The translations under genes and the position numbers were made by a program. A DNA stretch of 64,000 nucleotides from Porticoccaceae bacterium (GTDB lineage Bacteria; Pseudomonadota; Gammaproteobacteria; Pseudomonadales; Porticoccaceae): positions 1 to 64,000 of the forward strand of contig JAHEGD010000003.1 of the NCBI GenBank assembly GCA_024639885.1, given 5' to 3'. The notes beneath the pieces are model-generated. The model worked only from the letters and a program-made list of their open reading frames with translations. It had not been told where the DNA came from and ran no database searches. Of this stretch, positions 38,537 through 63,737 are shown in pieces (the stretch's first letter is position 1; each line of letters begins with the position of its first letter).

Positions 38537-41476
38537 TTAGACCGTTAGCCGCGTACCGTTCCAGGTCATACTGATACCACCCAAATTGACCTGCAGAAGA
38601 GGAGCAACACCCTCGGTGGTGAAGCCCAAGTAGCCCATGTTTGCTCGGCCTACAAGCGTTCCAGAAGTTCCAGAGTTGTAACCACTGAGCATGAGAGCGC
38701 CAAAAAGGTTTGTAGAGCTATTAGGCGTTCTATATAAAATAGCACGACCAATAGTGTCTCTGAAGAGACCAGCTTGACGGCCTCCTGAATCCATCCATTC
38801 ATAGCCGCCATCATAATTTGTTCGGGTTGCTCGATAGGAGCTGGAGAAATAAACATAGGAAGCGACAGTGAAGCTTTCAACGGTTGAGTTAGCGTCACCG
38901 ACCAGAATTAATTTGTCATCGCTGCCTAAATTGAGCGTGCCCGTCCAGAGTTCACTAGCTAGATCTTGTAGTCCGCCGGACTTGTAAGGGACAATGATGT
39001 AAATGTCGTAAGAGTCAGAGCCTGAGAAAACTCGCGACCCGGTTGGCGTGCCGTCCAGTGTCGATGTGTGGCCATTGGCAAAATCAAAAATGACTGGAAT
39101 TGCCTCTGCCGGCGCGACGGTATCAATGGTCGCCGCCGCCAAGGCGCCGTTGCTGCTGAGATTGCCGGCGAGGTCAGTTTGGCGAACCAGCACGTCGTCG
39201 CTGTCATAGACCCCATCGGCCAACTCAAAGCTGTTACCGCTGCCGGGATTCCAGCTGTTGCCGCCGTCAGTGGAATACTCCCAGATGGCATCGGCCTCTA
39301 AGCCAGATATGGTCACTGTCGCATCGGAGGTCGAGCCATCGGTGCCGGCGTCGACTAACGCCACGCTTGGCGCTGCCGGCGCGGCGGTATCAATGGTCGC
39401 CGCCGCCAAGGCGCCGTTGCTGCTGAGATTACCGGCGAGGTCAGTTTGGCGAACCAGCACGTCGTCGCTGTCATAGACCCCATCGGCCAACTCAAAGCTT
39501 GAATCGCTGCCACCTGAGCTCCAGGTAGAACCGCTGTCAACCGAGTACTCCCAGCTCGCACCCGCTTCCAGTGCGCCAACGTTAACAGTTGCGTCGTTGG
39601 TCAGGCCACTGCTGCCCGCATCGGCCAGTGCTACAGTGGGGGTCGTTATTGCCGTATCCACAGTCGCACCAGCAAGGTCTGTTGCAAGGCTTTGGTTGCC
39701 TGCCAGATCGGTCTGGCGAACTTGCACGTCACCCGTATCGTAAACACCGTCTGCAAGCTCAAAGCTTGAATCGCTGCCACCTGAGCTCCAGGTAGAACCA
39801 CTGTCAACCGAGTACTCCCAGCTGGCGCCGCTCTCTAAGCCATCCACCACAATGGTGGCATCGTTAGTAATGCGGTCATCACCGATATTGCTGTCGCTAG
39901 CAATGTCGACGGTCAGTGACGCAACAGTCGTATCAACCTCAATCGCTCCCAACTCGGCAACGTTGCTGAGGTTGCCGGCCAGATCGGTCTGGCGGACTTG
40001 CACATAACCTTCATCGTAGCTGTCATCGCCCAGCTCAAAGCTGCTGCCACTACCGGCCACCCAGCTAGACCCGCTGTCAACCGAGTACTCCCAGCTGGCA
40101 CCCGCTTCCAGTGCGCCAACGTTAACGGTTGCGTCGTTGGTCAGGCCACTGCTGCCCGCATCTGCCAGCACTGCAGTGGGGGTCGTTATTGCCGTATCCA
40201 CAGTCGCACCAGCAAGGTCTGTTGCAAGGCTTTGGTTGCCTGCCAAGTCGGTCTGGCGAACTTGCACGTCACCCGTATCGTAAACACCGTCTGCAAGCTC
40301 AAAGCTTGAATCGCTGCCACCTGAGCTCCAGGTAGAACCGCTGTCAACCGAGTACTCCCAGCTCGCACCGCTCTCTAAGCCATCCACCACAATGGTGGCA
40401 TCGTTAGTAATGCGGTCATCACCGATATTGCTGTCGCTAGCAATGTCGACTGTCGGTGGCGCTACGGTCGTATCAACCTCAATCGCTCCCAGCTCGGCAA
40501 CGTTGCTGAGGTTGCCGGCCAGATCGGTCTGGCGGACTTGTACATAACCTTCATCGTAGCTGTCATCGCCCAGCTCAAAGCTGCTGCCACTACCGGCCAC
40601 CCAGCTAGACCCACTGTCAACCGAGTACTCCCAGCTGGCACCCGCTTCCAGTGCGCCAACGTTAACGGTTGCGTCGTTGGTCAGGCCACTGCTGCCCGCA
40701 TCGGCCAGCACTGCAGTGGGGGTAGCGACCAACGTGTCTACCGCCTGCGTCTCTTGCTCTGCAGCCAGATTTTTACCGCCAGCCGACGTCCTAGCCACGT
40801 CAGCCGCGATATCAACCGTAATAGGTGCAACGCTATCATCTGACGGCGTCACTACCAGCGTGTATTCACTAGCCGAGACCGCTGTGAAGGCGCCCTTTGT
40901 CCCCCCGGTTACAACGACATCATCAACAACGAAGTCCTGTACATCGTTATCAAAAACAATAGTGAAGGTCACATCGCCATTAACCGGCGTTGAAGTACCA
41001 CCTGAAATAACAACAGTAGGCGCCGGTCCAGTACCGGCACTGTCGTCGTTAGCGAGCGCGACGCCGCCACCCACTACCAGCACGCCGGCTGCAACATTAG
41101 TGGCGGTAAGCCCACCGAAGGCCTCTGTCTCTGCCAAACCACCCAGCAGATCACTCTCGGGCCAGACCGTTCCAGCCCCTTCCAGTTCCATCACGGTGCT
41201 GGTACCAATTTCGGCGGTGGCGGTATCTAAGCTGCCGTTAACGCTGAACTGTGCGGCCATATCGTCGCTGTAGAACTCAGTCAACCGACTGACCTCGTCG
41301 CCATTGATAGTCATCACCAGATCGTCGCCGTCGCGCAACAGCTCTAGACCGTCGGGTATGCTATCGCTACCAGCCACGGTGAGGGTATAAACGCTATTCG
41401 CTTGGGTTGGGTGAACACCAACGCCGATTGCCGAGACCACACCCTCTACTGCCTGCTTGAGCACCAATGACAACAT
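38537..41476 (-). CDS. large repeat-containing adhesin-like protein
   Basis: About 979 residues, acidic and poor in Cys, with no signal peptide. The N-terminus (ELLRDGDDLVMTINGDEVSR) resembles the BapA-type prefix domain. An Ig-like domain (VVISGGTSTPVNGDVTFTIV) follows, then six tandem ~90-residue Ig-like repeats, each with ASWEYSVDSGS and VRQTDLAGN. These alternate in two types forming a 180-residue super-repeat. The last ~200 residues are unrelated to the repeats and more AT-rich (YIIVPYKSGGLQDLASELW, NSSTNLFGALMLSGYNSG), perhaps a lectin-like head. Type I secretion is typical for such proteins, but no secretion genes lie nearby. The ATG at 41476 has GGGAG upstream. Confidence 0.8.
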   Translation of the reverse strand: MLSLVLKQAVEGVVSAIGVGVHPTQANSVYTLTVAGSDSIPDGLELLRDGDDLVMTINGDEVSRLTEFYSDDMAAQFSVNGSLDTATAEIGTSTVMELEGAGTVWPESDLLGGLAETEAFGGLTATNVAAGVLVVGGGVALANDDSAGTGPAPTVVISGGTSTPVNGDVTFTIVFDNDVQDFVVDDVVVTGGTKGAFTAVSASEYTLVVTPSDDSVAPITVDIAADVARTSAGGKNLAAEQETQAVDTLVATPTAVLADAGSSGLTNDATVNVGALEAGASWEYSVDSGSSWVAGSGSSFELGDDSYDEGYVQVRQTDLAGNLSNVAELGAIEVDTTVAPPTVDIASDSNIGDDRITNDATIVVDGLESGASWEYSVDSGSTWSSGGSDSSFELADGVYDTGDVQVRQTDLAGNQSLATDLAGATVDTAITTPTAVLADAGSSGLTNDATVNVGALEAGASWEYSVDSGSSWVAGSGSSFELGDDSYDEGYVQVRQTDLAGNLSNVAELGAIEVDTTVASLTVDIASDSNIGDDRITNDATIVVDGLESGASWEYSVDSGSTWSSGGSDSSFELADGVYDTGDVQVRQTDLAGNQSLATDLAGATVDTAITTPTVALADAGSSGLTNDATVNVGALEAGASWEYSVDSGSTWSSGGSDSSFELADGVYDSDDVLVRQTDLAGNLSSNGALAAATIDTAAPAAPSVALVDAGTDGSTSDATVTISGLEADAIWEYSTDGGNSWNPGSGNSFELADGVYDSDDVLVRQTDLAGNLSSNGALAAATIDTVAPAEAIPVIFDFANGHTSTLDGTPTGSRVFSGSDSYDIYIIVPYKSGGLQDLASELWTGTLNLGSDDKLILVGDANSTVESFTVASYVYFSSSYRATRTNYDGGYEWMDSGGRQAGLFRDTIGRAILYRTPNSSTNLFGALMLSGYNSGTSGTLVGRANMGYLGFTTEGVAPLLQVNLGGISMTWNGTRLTV
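39531..40718 (-). repeat. 540-bp near-identical direct repeats within the adhesin gene
   Basis: The same DNA recurs at a 540-bp period: GTCAGGCCACTGCTGCCCGC begins at 39600, 40140 and 40680. Each unit codes for two Ig-like domains (180 residues). Only scattered single-base changes separate the copies, so they arose by recent duplication or are kept alike by gene conversion. Confidence 0.9.
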
Positions 41477-41871
41477 AACCACTCCCGTAATAATTGATAG
41501 GTATTAACGCATAAGTTTTTCACAGGATCGCCTGATTTAAAAGCACTGCCGTTGGGGAAAAACACATCGCGCGAAGGCAATCGGTATCGGCGCGCTAGCA
41601 GCCCACTGCAGTGATGGGTCTACGGTTTTGCGCCGGCCGGCGGTACAGTTATAAGGACCACTGTAAACGATTAACGCCGCCGCCCGGCGTTGAGATAGGG
41701 GCTTGAGCGTGCTGCCAAATCACGACGAGCGAAGGCCCAGAATCTAACGCCACCCACCATCCGGAATGGCTTTAAACAGAGCGCGATCCCGTTCGCTAAA
41801 ACCTAAATTGAAGAATGCCAGATGGCTGTGCTGGCAACACCGTTAGTAGACCGGCATCGAGTCGCCGATGA
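41477..41871. other. intergenic region upstream of the adhesin gene
   Basis: About 395 bases between the steroid operon's last gene and the adhesin, same strand. It should hold the adhesin promoter; AT-rich sequence at 41490-41540 is a candidate location. A short open stretch on the minus strand at 41744-41842 reads HLAFFNLGFSERDRALFKAI then PDGGWR and a stop, which looks like the tail of some protein but is not recognised and has no start. Confidence 0.4.
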
Positions 41872-57422: not shown

Positions 57423-58328
57423 ATGAGCATTAAAAGTTTGGGTTATATCGGCATCAACAGCGCGCAGCGCCAACAGTGGCAGGACTTTGGCTGCCAAGTG
57501 ATGGGGCTAGAGGATGTCAGCGAGCGGCTGGCTGGCGCCAACGCTGAATCGCTCTACCTGAAGATGGACAGCCACCCCTTTCGAATCGTGGTTCAGCCGG
57601 CGAACACGGAGGGGCTGGCCTTTTGCGGCTGGGAGTGCAACAGCGCCGAGGGGCTGACCGAACTGGCCGACCAGCTAACCGCCGCTGGGGTCGAGTTTCA
57701 ATGGGCCGACAGCGAACTGATCGCCGCCCGCCGGGTACAGAACTTACTGCAATTTAAAGACCCCTCCGGCAACTGCCACGAGGCCTACTGGGGTGTGGTA
57801 AGTGACTTTGTGGCACTTAACTCGCCAGCTGGGGTGCCGGCGTTTGTCACCGCCGAACAAGGCATGGGCCACATTGTGCTACCGGCGGTCAACTTTGACG
57901 CCACCGTGGCGTTCTTCCAAACGCTGGGTTTTGGTCTCTCTGATTTGATGAACATCAAGTTTAGCCCGGACCCCAACGAGCCCAACAAGCGACTCTGGTT
58001 TATGCACTGCAACGAGCGCCACCACAGCTTGGCCTTTTTTGAGATGGAGCACCCGGCCGGCTGCATCCACCTGATGACCGAAGTTGGCAGCGTCGACCAG
58101 GTCGGGCTCTGCAACGACCGCCGTATCGCCCACGAGATAAAACTGACTGGCACCCTCGGCCGCCATGCCAACGACCATATGGTCTCGTTCTATATGCGTT
58201 CGCCGAGCGGCTTTGATATCGAATACGGCGCCGAGGGCCGCACCATCGCCGACTGGCAGAACTATCAGGTGTTCGAGAGCACAGTGGCTAGCTTCTGGGG
58301 CCACGACTTCAGCGTCGGTATGGACTAA
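57423..58328 (+). CDS. hsaC: HsaC-like 3,4-DHSA extradiol dioxygenase
   Basis: About 301 residues, two vicinal-oxygen-chelate domains. Fe(II) ligands are His150 (QGMGHIVLP), His216 (GCIHLMTEVGS) and Glu267 (SGFDIEYGAEG), spaced as in BphC-type enzymes. It splits ring A of the catechol 3,4-DHSA to 4,9-DSHA. The N-terminal IKSLGYIGINSAQRQQWQDF matches HsaC. It lies 28 bases after fadD3 and just ahead of hsaB, hsaA and hsaD. Confidence 0.95.
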   Translation: MSIKSLGYIGINSAQRQQWQDFGCQVMGLEDVSERLAGANAESLYLKMDSHPFRIVVQPANTEGLAFCGWECNSAEGLTELADQLTAAGVEFQWADSELIAARRVQNLLQFKDPSGNCHEAYWGVVSDFVALNSPAGVPAFVTAEQGMGHIVLPAVNFDATVAFFQTLGFGLSDLMNIKFSPDPNEPNKRLWFMHCNERHHSLAFFEMEHPAGCIHLMTEVGSVDQVGLCNDRRIAHEIKLTGTLGRHANDHMVSFYMRSPSGFDIEYGAEGRTIADWQNYQVFESTVASFWGHDFSVGMD

Positions 58329-58433
58329 GCGTAAAAAGCTGACTAGCTCAATTGAGGTATGCGCGCCGCGGTAGTTTTTGAAAAGATTATTATCGTTACC
58401 GGCTCCGCCCACCCACAACATTGGACGACTGTT

Positions 58434-58949
58434 ATGCAACAGCTAGACCCGCGCGAGTTTCGCAACGCCCTCGGCAGTTTTGCCACCGGTGTCACCGTCA
58501 TTACTACGGCCGAGCAGAACTCGGATGGCAGCCGTCGCCCAGTGGCGCTGACCGCCAACAGTTTCTCCTCGGTATCACTCGACCCGGCACTGGTGCTGTG
58601 GAGCATCGACAAGTCGGCCGGCAGCTTCGCGGTGTTTAACGACTGCACCGCGTTCGCTATCCACGTATTGCACGATGGCCAGCGCGAGCTATCGCAGCGC
58701 TGCGCGTCGTCTAAGGGCGAAAAGCTACGCGATGGCGAATGGCGCTATGGCGAACTCGAAGTACCGCTGCTGGACGAATGTAAAACGCTCTTTGAGTGCC
58801 GGGTAGAGCACCGCTACGAGGGCGGTGACCACATTATTATGGTCGGCCGAGTGGTCAACTTTGAGCGCCGCGACGGGGGCGGCAAAGAACCAGCTCTGCT
58901 CTACTACCAAGGTCAGTACCAACAGCTCGATCAATCGTCAGCGGCTTAA
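58434..58949 (+). CDS. hsaB: HsaB-like flavin reductase
   Basis: About 171 residues. The flavin-reductase fold starts FRNALGSFATGVTVITT, then ALTANSFSSVSLDPALVLWS binds flavin, and CRVEHRYEGGDHIIMVGRVV closes it. HsaB supplies reduced FMN to HsaA. The frame begins at 58359, but the ATG at 58434 is where the conserved domain starts. An insertion AEQNSDGSRRP near residue 25 separates the first two strands. Adjacent to hsaA. Confidence 0.9.
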   Translation: MQQLDPREFRNALGSFATGVTVITTAEQNSDGSRRPVALTANSFSSVSLDPALVLWSIDKSAGSFAVFNDCTAFAIHVLHDGQRELSQRCASSKGEKLRDGEWRYGELEVPLLDECKTLFECRVEHRYEGGDHIIMVGRVVNFERRDGGGKEPALLYYQGQYQQLDQSSAA

Positions 58950-58983
58950 CCGCGCCTATTACTATTACCAGGGGAACACCACC

Positions 58984-60114
58984 ATGAGCAAACAAGAGAT
59001 CATTATCACCCCAGAACTGCAAAAACTGATTGCCAGCCATGCCGACCAGCATCGCCAGCAGCGCAAGCTCAGCGTCGAAGTCATCGACGCGCTGAAAGAG
59101 AGCGGCTTTTTCAAGATGATGCTGCCGCGCGAGTACGGCGGCCTCGAATCGCGTCCACAGGAGTTCTTTGCCGAGCAGATACGCATCGCCGAAGCTGATA
59201 TGAGCACCGCCTGGGCTGGCGGTATCATCGCCGTGCACGCCTTTCAGATTGCCATGATGAGCAAGCAGACCCAGGACGAAGTATACGCCGAAGAGCCCAA
59301 TACGCTGGTGAGCAGCTCTTACAACCCGGTTGGGGCCAAAGTGGAAGCGTGCGAGGGCGGTTTTATGCTTTCTGGCCGCTGGGGCTGGAGCTCAGGCTCC
59401 GACCACTGTAGTTGGGCGCTACTCGGTGGGGTAATCCCCGGCGACGGCTATCGTACCCTGCTGGTGCCGCGCCATGATTATCAGATTGAAGACACCTGGG
59501 ATGTAATGGGTTTGCAGGGCACTGGCTCTAACGATATCGTCATCGACGCGCCGGTATTTGTACCGATGCACCGCACCCACCACCAGATTGACGGCTTTAA
59601 CGGCGTACACTTTCAAGAGCGCCCGATCTACAACCTGCCATGGGCACAGACGTTTATCCGTGTGGTCAATACCCCGGCGATCGGCGCGCTCAAAACTGCA
59701 TTGAAAACGTTTATTAAAACCCGCACCGGTGACCAAACCACCGATATCACCAAGCTGGCTGGCGACGTTGAGACCCAAGAGCGGATCGCCAAAGTGCGCT
59801 ACACCATCGCCGAATTAGAAGACATTATGATGGGTAACTTCGACAAGATGGAGGCGATGGATTGGCAGCCGACCATCGAGCAGCGGGTGCTTTACCGCTA
59901 CCAAGCGGGCAAGGTGATCGAAAAAGCGATCGAGGCGATCGACACCCTGTTTGACGTCGCTGGCGGCCGCTCGGTGTTCAAAGGTCATCCGTTACAGCAG
60001 CTCTGGAACGATATCCATATCGCCCGCTGCCACGTTGCCAATAATCCGACCAGCTTCGCCCGCAACCTCGGCCTAGTGTCGATGGGCGCGGACAACGCCG
60101 ACTACTTCCTCTAA
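58984..60114 (+). CDS. hsaA: HsaA-like 3-HSA hydroxylase (oxygenase component)
   Basis: About 376 residues, an acyl-CoA-dehydrogenase fold used as a flavin monooxygenase. VIDALKESGFFKMMLPREYG at the N-terminus, then SGRWGWSSGSDHCSWALLGG and the C-terminal FDVAGGRSVFKGHPLQQLWN with DIHIARCHVANN match HsaA. It hydroxylates 3-HSA at C4 with FMNH2 from HsaB to give 3,4-DHSA. The ATG at 58984 has AGGGG upstream; the open frame starts at 58825. Confidence 0.93.
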   Translation: MSKQEIIITPELQKLIASHADQHRQQRKLSVEVIDALKESGFFKMMLPREYGGLESRPQEFFAEQIRIAEADMSTAWAGGIIAVHAFQIAMMSKQTQDEVYAEEPNTLVSSSYNPVGAKVEACEGGFMLSGRWGWSSGSDHCSWALLGGVIPGDGYRTLLVPRHDYQIEDTWDVMGLQGTGSNDIVIDAPVFVPMHRTHHQIDGFNGVHFQERPIYNLPWAQTFIRVVNTPAIGALKTALKTFIKTRTGDQTTDITKLAGDVETQERIAKVRYTIAELEDIMMGNFDKMEAMDWQPTIEQRVLYRYQAGKVIEKAIEAIDTLFDVAGGRSVFKGHPLQQLWNDIHIARCHVANNPTSFARNLGLVSMGADNADYFL

Positions 60115-60126
60115 GGGGCCGCGACC

Positions 60127-60861
60127 ATGCAGCAGCCAGCCAGCCACACCGCTACGATCGATGGTTTGACGCTCAACTACCTCGACCTGCTCGCCTCCGG
60201 TGAGCAGCGCGGTGTCGTGCTGTTTTTGCACGGCAGCGGCCCCGGCGCCAGCGGCTGGAGTAACTTTAAGTTCAATGCTGAGGCATTCAGCGCGGCCGGT
60301 TACCGGGTGGTGATCCCCGACCTGCCAGGCTACGGCTTAAGTGACAAGCCGACCGATGTCGACTACACCCTCGACTACTTTGTCGGCGCAGTTAGTGGGC
60401 TGCTCAGTGCGCTCGATCTAAGCCAGTTGACGGTGGTCGGCAACTCGCTCGGCGGTGCGATTGCACTGGGGTTGGCGTTGGCCGAGCCAACTGCGATGGG
60501 CTCGCCAGAGTTCACCCGGCCGGTACTCAATGAGCTGCTCAAACTGCTGGTGGCCGACCCAGCCCATGTAACCGAGGCGCTGTTAACCGAGCGCTGGGAA
60601 ACCCTACAGCGGCAAAACCCCCGGGTGCTGGCAACCATGCAGGTGCCCAACATGGCGGCGCGACTCGGCGAGCTCAATGTGCCAGTACAGGTTTTTTGGG
60701 GTGCCGACGACCAGTTCTGCCCCGCCTCCGGCGGCCAGAAATTTATCGACCACTGTGCCAACGTCCGCCTCAACGTGTTGACCCGCTGTGGCCACTGGGT
60801 GATGGTCGAATACCCGGATTACTTCAACCGCCAGTGTCTCGATTTTATAGCCCACAGTTAA
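60127..60861 (+). CDS. hsaD: HsaD-like meta-cleavage product hydrolase, short form
   Basis: About 244 residues, against about 290 for known HsaD/TesD. Ser107 (GNSLGGAIAL), Asp195 (WGADDQFCP) and His223 (CGHWVMVE) form the triad, and VLFLHGSGPGASGWSNF holds the oxyanion region. The Asp-His distance (28) equals Mtb HsaD, but the Ser-Asp distance is 88 rather than 127. The strand that normally follows the nucleophile helix (RLVLMGPGG) is missing. It cleaves 4,9-DSHA to HIP and a C5 acid if active. Gene order hsaC-B-A-D supports the role. Confidence 0.87.
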   Translation: MQQPASHTATIDGLTLNYLDLLASGEQRGVVLFLHGSGPGASGWSNFKFNAEAFSAAGYRVVIPDLPGYGLSDKPTDVDYTLDYFVGAVSGLLSALDLSQLTVVGNSLGGAIALGLALAEPTAMGSPEFTRPVLNELLKLLVADPAHVTEALLTERWETLQRQNPRVLATMQVPNMAARLGELNVPVQVFWGADDQFCPASGGQKFIDHCANVRLNVLTRCGHWVMVEYPDYFNRQCLDFIAHS

Positions 60862-60969: not shown

Positions 60970-62112
60970 ATGCTCACACCAACACTAGACGAGTTCTCTA
61001 AGATTATCGGCCATCTCTATGATGGCCATATCGAGGAAGACCCGTACAATAATTTTCTGGCCGCTATCCGCGCGGTCATCGATTCTAACTTCGCCTCGAT
61101 CACCCTGCGCGAGCCGATCGCCGACGATGGTGGGCTGCTGTTTGTCAGCTGCGAAACACTGCAGAAGACTTACATAGACGCCCACGACAACCCCTACACC
61201 GACCGCTACTACACCTCTAACCTGATGACTAATCTGCCGTGGGGCGAGGTGGTCACACTCGACGAGTGCCACTCATACAGCTCGCTCGAAGAGAGCGACC
61301 TGTATGAGTTTTGTATGAAGCCGATCGACATCCACCACATGGTGGGTATTGACCTGCGCAACGCCAACGGCCAGCGCTTTAGCGTCCGCTTCTGCCGGCC
61401 CAAGAGCGCCAGCAACTTCGGTACCGAAGAGCGCCAGCTGTTGACGCTGCTGGCGCCGCACATCCAGCGCGCGGTCGCCAATGGCATGCAGCTGATCCAA
61501 CTCGACAATGAACGCAAGCTCTACAGCAAGACATTTAGCCGCCAGAGTATCGGCATCATCACCCTCGACGAGCGCGGCAAGGTGATCACCCGCAACGCGA
61601 TCGCCGACGAGCTGCTGCGCAACAAGGATGGCCTCCACATTATCAACGATACCATTCACCTAGACAGTGCCACGGCGCGCAGCAAATTTAACGGCTATGT
61701 CGAAGAAGTACTGGCTGCCCAGCGCGACCAGCAGGTGGCTCAAGTCAATGCGCTGTCGGCCGACCGGCCGTCGGGCAAGGCCGATCTCGAAATTCTCATC
61801 AAACCGATGATGATCGACAAGAGTGTCGACCCCAGCCACACCCCGCATATGATGGTGTTTATTAACGAGCCAGAAAAAAGCTACGACATCGACATTCGTA
61901 TATTGATGTCGATCTACGGGCTAACCCGCGCCGAGGCGCTGCTCGCCAAGTACCTCGCCGAGGGCGCCAACCTCGACCAGAGCGCCCAACAGCTGGGCAT
62001 TGCCCGCAACACAGCGCGCGCACAGCTGCGCTCAATCTTTGCCAAGACCGGTGTATCGCAGCAGTCGATGCTGGTCAGCTTGATACTCAAGAGCCTGGTC
62101 ACTTTCTCTTAA
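60970..62112 (+). CDS. LuxR-family regulator (TeiR-like)
   Basis: About 380 residues. The C-terminal 65 residues form a LuxR helix-turn-helix (LTRAEALLAKYLAEGANLDQ, SAQQLGIARNTARAQLRSIF plus AKTGVSQQSMLVSLIL). The N-terminal 300 residues are a PAS/GAF-like sensory region with no membrane segment. Size and architecture resemble TeiR, the testosterone-inducible regulator of Comamonas. It is the only regulator in the steroid island and is likely its activator. The link to TeiR is by architecture and context. Confidence 0.8.
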   Translation: MLTPTLDEFSKIIGHLYDGHIEEDPYNNFLAAIRAVIDSNFASITLREPIADDGGLLFVSCETLQKTYIDAHDNPYTDRYYTSNLMTNLPWGEVVTLDECHSYSSLEESDLYEFCMKPIDIHHMVGIDLRNANGQRFSVRFCRPKSASNFGTEERQLLTLLAPHIQRAVANGMQLIQLDNERKLYSKTFSRQSIGIITLDERGKVITRNAIADELLRNKDGLHIINDTIHLDSATARSKFNGYVEEVLAAQRDQQVAQVNALSADRPSGKADLEILIKPMMIDKSVDPSHTPHMMVFINEPEKSYDIDIRILMSIYGLTRAEALLAKYLAEGANLDQSAQQLGIARNTARAQLRSIFAKTGVSQQSMLVSLILKSLVTFS

Positions 62113-62564: not shown

Positions 62565-63656
62565 TTAAATAGGTAGCCCATCGTCAATGTCGTGGCCTTT
62601 GTCAGCCGGCAGCGGCATCGCCGGCACGTGATAAGTGCCATTGACCTCGCTGTGCAGGGCCGCCAGCTCACTGCGCGGCAGATAGAACTGCGAGTACCAC
62701 CGACGGCCAGTTTTAAAAGGGCCATCGCTTTTCAATGCCATTATTTTGAGTGCTGGTTTTTTGTGCCGCCAGATCTGGAAGTCAGTGGCAAATGCCTCAA
62801 GCGCCCCGGCCTGCTGCGCCACCGCAATCTCGCGGTCTTCAGCCGTGGCTGGGTTGTTGGCGGCCTTCACCAAACAGCCGTGCCACGCCTTAATAGAGCC
62901 ATCAGCCACCGGGGTGCTGGCGATAATTTCGTACTGTACGCTGTCACCCCAGACCTGCTTGGAGAGCAGGATCCCCGGGCCGGTGTACCAGGTGGTGGTG
63001 TAGAGCATCAGCCCGCCGTAGAGCTGCATCACACCGCCCTGGCGCTGCACGTAGACATGGTCGTTGGCGACATTTTCAAAGTAGTCTGCCGGCGCCCCGT
63101 GGGTCGGGCCGAGGTGGCGGACATCGGACATATTGTCCAGTACCTCTTGCTGGTGAATCTCCAGCTCGCCCAAGTGATCGAGCTTCCACTGCACCCACTG
63201 CGGGTCATCCCACTCGGGTAGCGACGGCGCCGCGTAGTCTGGCTCACCGCCCTCTTCGTCGAACCAGGCCATGATACAGCCCATGCTCTCGACTACCGGG
63301 TAGGATTGGATCGACGCCGATTTGGGACAGGGGCCATCGTGGTAAGGGATGTCGTCGACATCACCGGCCGAGTTGTAGCGCCAGCCGTGGTAGGGGCAGC
63401 GGATAGAGTCGCCTTCAATCTGCAAGCCGTTGCGGACAATCATGGCCGAATCGCTGGCGGCCAGATGGGTACCCATGTGTTTGCAGTAAGCGTCGAGCAG
63501 CACCGGGTTGCCGCTCTCGCCGCGGTAGAGCGCCAAGTCGCGGCCAAAAAAGGTGACCGCAATCGGTCCGCTGTCGAGCTCGCTCTGCTCGGCGACCACA
63601 AACCAGCCGCGCGGAAACGTGTGGGGGCCTAAACCGTAATCTTTACTTGTCGCCAT
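62565..63656 (-). CDS. kshA: 3-ketosteroid 9-alpha-hydroxylase, oxygenase component
   Basis: About 363 residues. The Rieske [2Fe-2S] motif is Cys58-x-His60 (YCKHMGTHLA) and Cys87-x2-His90 (IRCPYHGWRY). The mononuclear iron site has His181 and His186 in DNMSDVRHLGPTHGAP, at the same numbers as in mycobacterial KshA. The N-terminus PHTFPRGWFVVAEQSELDSG matches KshA. The reductase KshB is not in the window. The ATG at 63656 has AGAGGAGAG upstream; the frame is open to 63728. Confidence 0.93.
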   Translation of the reverse strand: MATSKDYGLGPHTFPRGWFVVAEQSELDSGPIAVTFFGRDLALYRGESGNPVLLDAYCKHMGTHLAASDSAMIVRNGLQIEGDSIRCPYHGWRYNSAGDVDDIPYHDGPCPKSASIQSYPVVESMGCIMAWFDEEGGEPDYAAPSLPEWDDPQWVQWKLDHLGELEIHQQEVLDNMSDVRHLGPTHGAPADYFENVANDHVYVQRQGGVMQLYGGLMLYTTTWYTGPGILLSKQVWGDSVQYEIIASTPVADGSIKAWHGCLVKAANNPATAEDREIAVAQQAGALEAFATDFQIWRHKKPALKIMALKSDGPFKTGRRWYSQFYLPRSELAALHSEVNGTYHVPAMPLPADKGHDIDDGLPI

Positions 63657-63737
63657 GTCAGTCTCTCCTCTGTGCTGTGAGTATAGCCACAGTGCCGATA
63701 GGGTAATCGTCCAAATGAAGGTGACCAAAAAACACCG

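Follow-up and report, generated by a model that had tools for sequence, protein, structure and literature searches.

Probable recent loss of core strand beta6 from an HsaD-type hydrolase in the steroid gene cluster of a SAR92-type marine gammaproteobacterium

The gene at positions 60127–60861 of the DNA analysed here (the window, a stretch of 64,000 nucleotides from a Porticoccaceae genome) is an hsaD/tesD-type gene for a meta-cleavage-product hydrolase, situated in the steroid gene cluster of a SAR92-type marine gammaproteobacterium, and it contains an internal in-frame gap. We consider it probable that the gap arose through a very recent in-frame deletion of 93 bp that inactivated hsaD. A preliminary description of this DNA had left three readings side by side, a minimal active hydrolase, a recent in-frame deletion and an assembly error; the deletion is the best supported of the three, the relatives being full length and the rest of the gene showing no relaxed constraint.

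Results

The gene encodes an HsaD-type hydrolase in a steroid ring-cleavage cluster

The open reading frame starts with ATG, has zero internal stops and encodes 244 amino acids. Its product was assigned to the alpha/beta hydrolases (Pfam) and is by descent a derivative of the alpha/beta-hydrolase fold. Matches to the NCBIfam BphD and HsaD models reached 147.3 and 137.3 bits, respectively, each split into two stretches and both below cut-off (400 bits for HsaD). Among solved structures the best match by sequence was BphD, with residues 30–126 and 132–243 of the query aligning to residues 35–131 and 166–285 of the chain. The HsaD cut-off does not discriminate here, because the intact orthologue of strain LSUCC0057 (L028:5001–5828) also stays below it, with 170.6 bits in a single stretch; against the BphD model (cut-off 462) the same protein scored 176.5 bits. 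Since even an intact protein scores this low, the marine clade is left unnamed by the NCBIfam HsaD and BphD models.

Start, frame, catalytic triad and the equivalents of the BphD substrate site are all retained in the window gene (Table 1). The GNSxGG elbow is present, and the distance between acid and base is 28 residues, the same as in 96 other loci. BphD acts on a biphenyl product, and we take its residues N51, R190 and W266 to be substrate-site residues; they align with N46, R156 and W224 of the window protein, which presumably share the substrate-binding role. In BphD of Burkholderia xenovorans LB400 (PDB 2og1) the triad aligns as well, but the Ser-Asp spacing is 125, and beta6 and the full lid are present.

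Table 1. Positions of the hsaD-type gene, its landmarks and its neighbours in the window.
Feature	Position	Strand	Basis or remark
hsaC-like extradiol dioxygenase	57423..58328	+	Top NCBIfam model HsaC, 302.3 bits; cut-off 450 not reached
hsaB-like flavin reductase	58359..58949	+	HsaB model third best, below cut-off
hsaA-like flavin-dependent oxygenase, directly upstream	58978..60114	+	Top NCBIfam model HsaA, 291.5 bits; cut-off 450 not reached
hsaD/tesD-type gene with internal in-frame gap	60127..60861	+	ORF list, profile matches, alignments
Asn46	60262..60264	+	Aligns with BphD N51
Nucleophile Ser107 within GNSLGG	60445..60447	+	Motif script, alignment
Join of the 93-bp gap, codons A123 and M124	60493..60498	+	Alignment with L028; placement +/- about one codon
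Arg156	60592..60594	+	Aligns with BphD R190
Acid Asp195	60709..60711	+	Motif script, alignment
Base His223, followed by Trp224 (60796-60798)	60793..60795	+	Trp224 aligns with BphD W266
Regulator-like gene, C-terminal helix-turn-helix, downstream	60970..62112	+	Weak matches only
kshA-like Rieske oxygenase, same cluster	62565..63728	-	KshA_C 178.4 bits; cut-off 23.3 passed

The gene order is hsaC-hsaB-hsaA-hsaD, and kstD-, CoA-transferase-, thiolase-, acyl-CoA dehydrogenase-, AMP-ligase- and kshA-like genes lie near. With hsaC-, hsaB- and hsaA-like genes upstream and kshA- and kstD-like genes nearby, the setting of the window hsaD in a steroid ring-cleavage cluster was confirmed. Steroid degradation is listed among the complete pathways of LSUCC0057 (PMC6588378), and marine gammaproteobacteria of the OM60 and SAR86 groups are described as putative steroid degraders, with HsaD/TesD among the key enzymes, in the excerpts of PMC4810484 used here. 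A general decay of the cluster was rejected, as each of the hsaA-, hsaB-, hsaC-, CoA-transferase- and kshA-like genes finds its reciprocal best match in the other genome of the genus sample (G067), with lengths that are similar or compatible. Both genus genomes also carry a second extradiol-dioxygenase-like gene (G000:C37:3639–4496, where G000 is the window's own genome, and G067:C2:115959–116816), 32% identical to the hsaC-like protein of the window.

The gap takes out strand beta6 with its turn and the beginning of the lid

The same-genus orthologue in G067, apparently strain LSUCC0057 (L028; G067:C1:520310–521137), has 276 amino acids, occupies the collinear place in the cluster, carries the same triad and is 76% identical to the window protein over the aligned residues. 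Unlike the window protein, it possesses residues V125–P155 (VAKLILMAPGGIEEREVYFNMRGIQEMVKYP), which make up beta6, the following turn and the first stretch of lid; in the protein alignment these 31 residues, or 93 bp, are without counterpart in the window protein, and the join falls at about 60495/60496, give or take one codon. The only other gap between the two proteins is a single residue close to the N-terminus. The absent segment thus holds the core strand that reads LILMAPGG in the orthologue, and of the lid between beta6 and beta7 the first part lies in the gap while the remainder is kept. This agrees with the preliminary description, in which a strand of the type RLVLMGPGG and part of the lid were reported missing from a gene with intact frame and triad.

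The spacings given there also held on recounting, with 88 residues from S107 to D195 and 28 from D195 to H223 in the window protein, and 127 and 28 in the PDB chain of Mycobacterium tuberculosis HsaD (PDB 5jz9, 2vf2), a member of the same family that catalyses the same pathway step. The loss of about 39 residues derived from this comparison was real as a gap but too large. Since Ser-Asp spacing in this clade is 118–120, the loss amounts to the 31 residues seen against L028, and the remaining 8 belong to the lid of M. tuberculosis HsaD, which has beta6 and is longer by that number than the lid of this clade; a single loss of 39 residues was rejected. Some small lipases have a Ser-Asp spacing shorter than 88. 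The short spacing is in itself unremarkable for the fold, and it is the absence of beta6 that is remarkable.

The short form was found once among relatives

A motif script was run on 107 loci and returned a spacing for 97, in which nine genes were entered as two loci each and that of LSUCC0057 a third time. Of the ten loci without a value, six are further hydrolase hits in the own genome and two belong to a contig-split gene; the last two, L090 and L098, align at full length, their motif having been missed by the pattern. Ser-Asp spacing in the 96 other loci was 118 (48 loci), 119 (33) or 120 (15), and 88 was seen solely in the window locus; the comparison with orthologues therefore showed full-length forms throughout and the short form once. 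At the level of the family, 11 of 112 genomes matched at E<=1e-30, including the own genome; nine of the ten other matches consist of one open frame of 282–294 aa, and the gene of the tenth (G052) is split between contigs. In the order sample, 77 of 390 genomes matched at E<=1e-25, and an unbroken match over residues 1–244 was found in the own genome alone. Besides the own gene, the frames listed below 270 aa were those of G442 (247 aa) and G311 (213 and 125 aa across two contigs); the former was rejected as a second short form, since its frame exits the contig end and retains LILMGCGG. Among the searched genomes of the family (112) and the order (390), the own genome was the only one in which a short form was seen. 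A scan of viral contigs gave 2 pattern matches and no relative. Among the titles and abstract openings listed in searches of open-licence literature, none reported a hydrolase without beta6.

The frequency of comparable gaps was determined with 382 reciprocal-best ORF pairs from G000 (572 kb) and G067 (1.12 Mb). A filter for good coverage and an identity of 60% or more left 270 pairs with 86,032 aligned residues, including some opposite-strand shadow ORFs. Net length changes of at least 15 residues flanked by well-aligned blocks were counted, and gaps near protein ends were ignored. Three of the 270 pairs showed such a change: hsaD, a repeat protein of the window and a 1029-aa frame on contig C21. 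The repeat protein is encoded by a large, repeat-rich gene on the minus strand (window 38540–41503 or 38537–41482) and has gained and lost repeat units relative to G067 (88 and 95 residues), and the C21 frame displays multiple gains and losses. These two gain-and-loss proteins aside, hsaD is the only clean net loss of at least 15 residues in the own genome among the 270 pairs. Nearer a protein end, the ORF at G000:C2:103577–104440 has a gap of 62 residues near the N-terminus relative to its G067 counterpart and is 79% identical elsewhere.

The rest of the gene shows no sign of relaxed constraint

Between G000 and G067, pN/pS was 0.266 for hsaD, compared with 0.213 for hsaC, 0.233 for hsaB and 0.240 for hsaA, and the median over 212 pairs (shadow ORFs included) was 0.242. 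Thirty-five other relatives share 50 invariant columns, of which the window protein keeps 49 and LSUCC0057 all; the sole departure is L103V (codon 60433–60435), on the nucleophile strand beside the place where beta6 would be. Among 106 columns conserved at 70% or more, the window protein and LSUCC0057 show two lone departures each, and at 179 sites with three agreeing outgroup sequences 4 own changes were counted for the window protein and 11 for its sister. If the gene has evolved neutrally since the deletion, the time elapsed would be at most about 4% of the branch, a rough figure for which half of a saturating dS was used. The remainder of the gene thus shows no relaxed constraint, which fits a very recent event: either the gene evolved at full length almost up to the time of sampling, or the organism does not have the gap. 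A working short enzyme would be constrained as well, but should show changes in the residues that would pack on the lost strand; among these there is no clear compensating change, L103V being the only candidate and a mild one.

Structural consequences predicted for the short protein

AlphaFold2 models of the window protein and the LSUCC0057 orthologue were built from the same relatives as the alignment. For the orthologue, mean pLDDT was 95.0 and pTM 0.93, with a strand at residues 125–131; for the window protein the values were 86.8 and 0.85, residues 120–126 fell below 50, and strands were absent between those at 102–105 and 187–192. The LxLMAPGG strand and its turn are therefore missing from both the sequence and the model of the window protein and present in the orthologue control. 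Modelling, which had been proposed in the preliminary description, yielded a mostly confident chain that nevertheless lacks the beta6 strand and is poorly defined at the join. The short-form model superimposed on MhpC and BphD (VIA-align) with Z-scores of 30.6 and 30.5 and rmsd values of 2.0 and 1.9 over 237 and 236 aligned residues, respectively; the score to MhpC was not counted as evidence of folding, because the model is led by the family alignment.

Seven residues of the lost segment are invariant in 36 relatives (L128, M131, A132, G134, G135, Y142 and M151 in L028 numbering). According to the excerpts of PMC7034887 used here, two weak hydrogen bonds link the nucleophile with the C-terminal residues of beta6 and are "absolutely conserved", in 40 of 40 alpha/beta-hydrolase families, and the C-terminus of beta6 additionally anchors the catalytic histidine. 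The segment that makes these contacts is absent from the window sequence, so that the loss of beta6 takes away part of the catalytic scaffold and not of the lid alone. The proposed course of events is that 93 bp would have been lost in frame, very recently, from the hsaD (tesD) of a steroid degrader. Without beta6 the sheet would be interrupted between beta5, which carries the nucleophile, and beta7, which carries the acid, and serine and histidine would lose their contacts at the end of beta6; the protein would then be misfolded or inactive, and, unless a different hydrolase steps in, the pathway would halt at the meta-cleavage product.

Discussion

Several observations speak against a disabling deletion: the gap is in frame, further lesions are absent, the constraint is that of a working protein, and most of the short chain is folded confidently by AlphaFold2 (pTM 0.85), although under the lead of the family alignment. 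On another reading, the short protein folds, closes its sheet without beta6 and still cleaves the steroid meta-cleavage product. The retained frame, triad and residues matching BphD N51, R190 and W266 would be expected of such an enzyme, as would normal constraint outside the gap, and L103V, the one departure from an invariant column, is on the strand beside the lost one. A minimal active hydrolase, as entertained in the preliminary description, is nonetheless very improbable in our view, as the gap takes a strand from the centre of the sheet along with seven invariant residues, the residues that packed on this strand show no clear change that might compensate, and the short form occurs in no relative examined. 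Activity is also made unlikely by the conservation of the beta6-end contacts in all 40 families surveyed, as stated in the excerpts of PMC7034887. It would take a natural alpha/beta hydrolase that dispenses with beta6 and holds its nucleophile and histidine without the contacts common to these 40 families, and we regard such an enzyme here as very improbable.

An error of assembly, also raised in the preliminary description, deserves more weight, though we still regard it as unlikely. The gap would then be absent from the living population or confined to a minority of it, and would stem from a faulty join, from a chimeric read or from the assembler's choice of a strain variant. An artefact predicts that the remainder of the gene resembles a full-length enzyme under normal constraint, as it does; the genome is a draft (2.21 Mb, 39 contigs), and the genus sample consists of this genome and G067, without a second strain of the species whose assembly could confirm the gap. 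However, the join is clean, in frame and internal to a 140-kb contig, and the window is collinear with G067 from ~25.7 to 63.9 kb. A search of the own genome with the lost residues returned only the retained downstream part in its place and one chance hit (E 0.35), by which a displaced segment elsewhere was rejected, and in LSUCC0057, a relative whose sequence may differ from that of the own ancestor, the two end regions share no exact repeat longer than 5 bases. With no displaced segment and so short a repeat, a repeat-driven misassembly is unlikely. The gap is moreover the only clean internal one of its size among the 270 orthologue pairs, the two variable proteins aside, and the assembly is therefore not generally prone to such gaps.

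The preferred reading, a recent disabling deletion, can be extended by supposing that the loss of hsaD is tolerated because a meta-cleavage-product hydrolase encoded on contig C23 stands in for it. We regard this addition as improbable. The C23 hydrolase is intact, with S108, D229 and H257 and a Ser-Asp spacing of 121; the HsaD model has no better match in the own genome (198.5 bits, the cut-off of 400 not being reached), and G067 gave no match to this hydrolase at E<=1e-40. Yet it is closest to CumD (414 bits, against 158 for M. tuberculosis HsaD) and sits in a catechol meta cluster, and since G034 and G037 carry a hydrolase of this type plus a full-length hsaD, its presence is not enough to account for the loss. 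Like the window protein it is a meta-cleavage-product hydrolase with a triad, but it is full length and shares 38% identity with the first half of the window protein. The catechol meta-cleavage cluster on this contig (L135:15895–19830) contains, besides the CumD-type hydrolase, genes matching the DmpH, DmpE and 2-hydroxymuconic semialdehyde dehydrogenase models above cut-off, and two further genes (L135:13938–15880), aldolase- and acetaldehyde dehydrogenase-like by eye, may belong to the same catechol pathway.

As a lesion it is ordinary, and the gene is a known one. Were the short protein to work, it would contradict the current view of what the core of an alpha/beta hydrolase needs, which is unlikely. 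A genuine, disabling deletion would mean that the C-C hydrolase step of steroid degradation disappeared from this lineage only just now, with the neighbouring genes still in place. The lineage would then offer a snapshot of pathway loss, in which a steroid cluster that looks complete may be non-functional.
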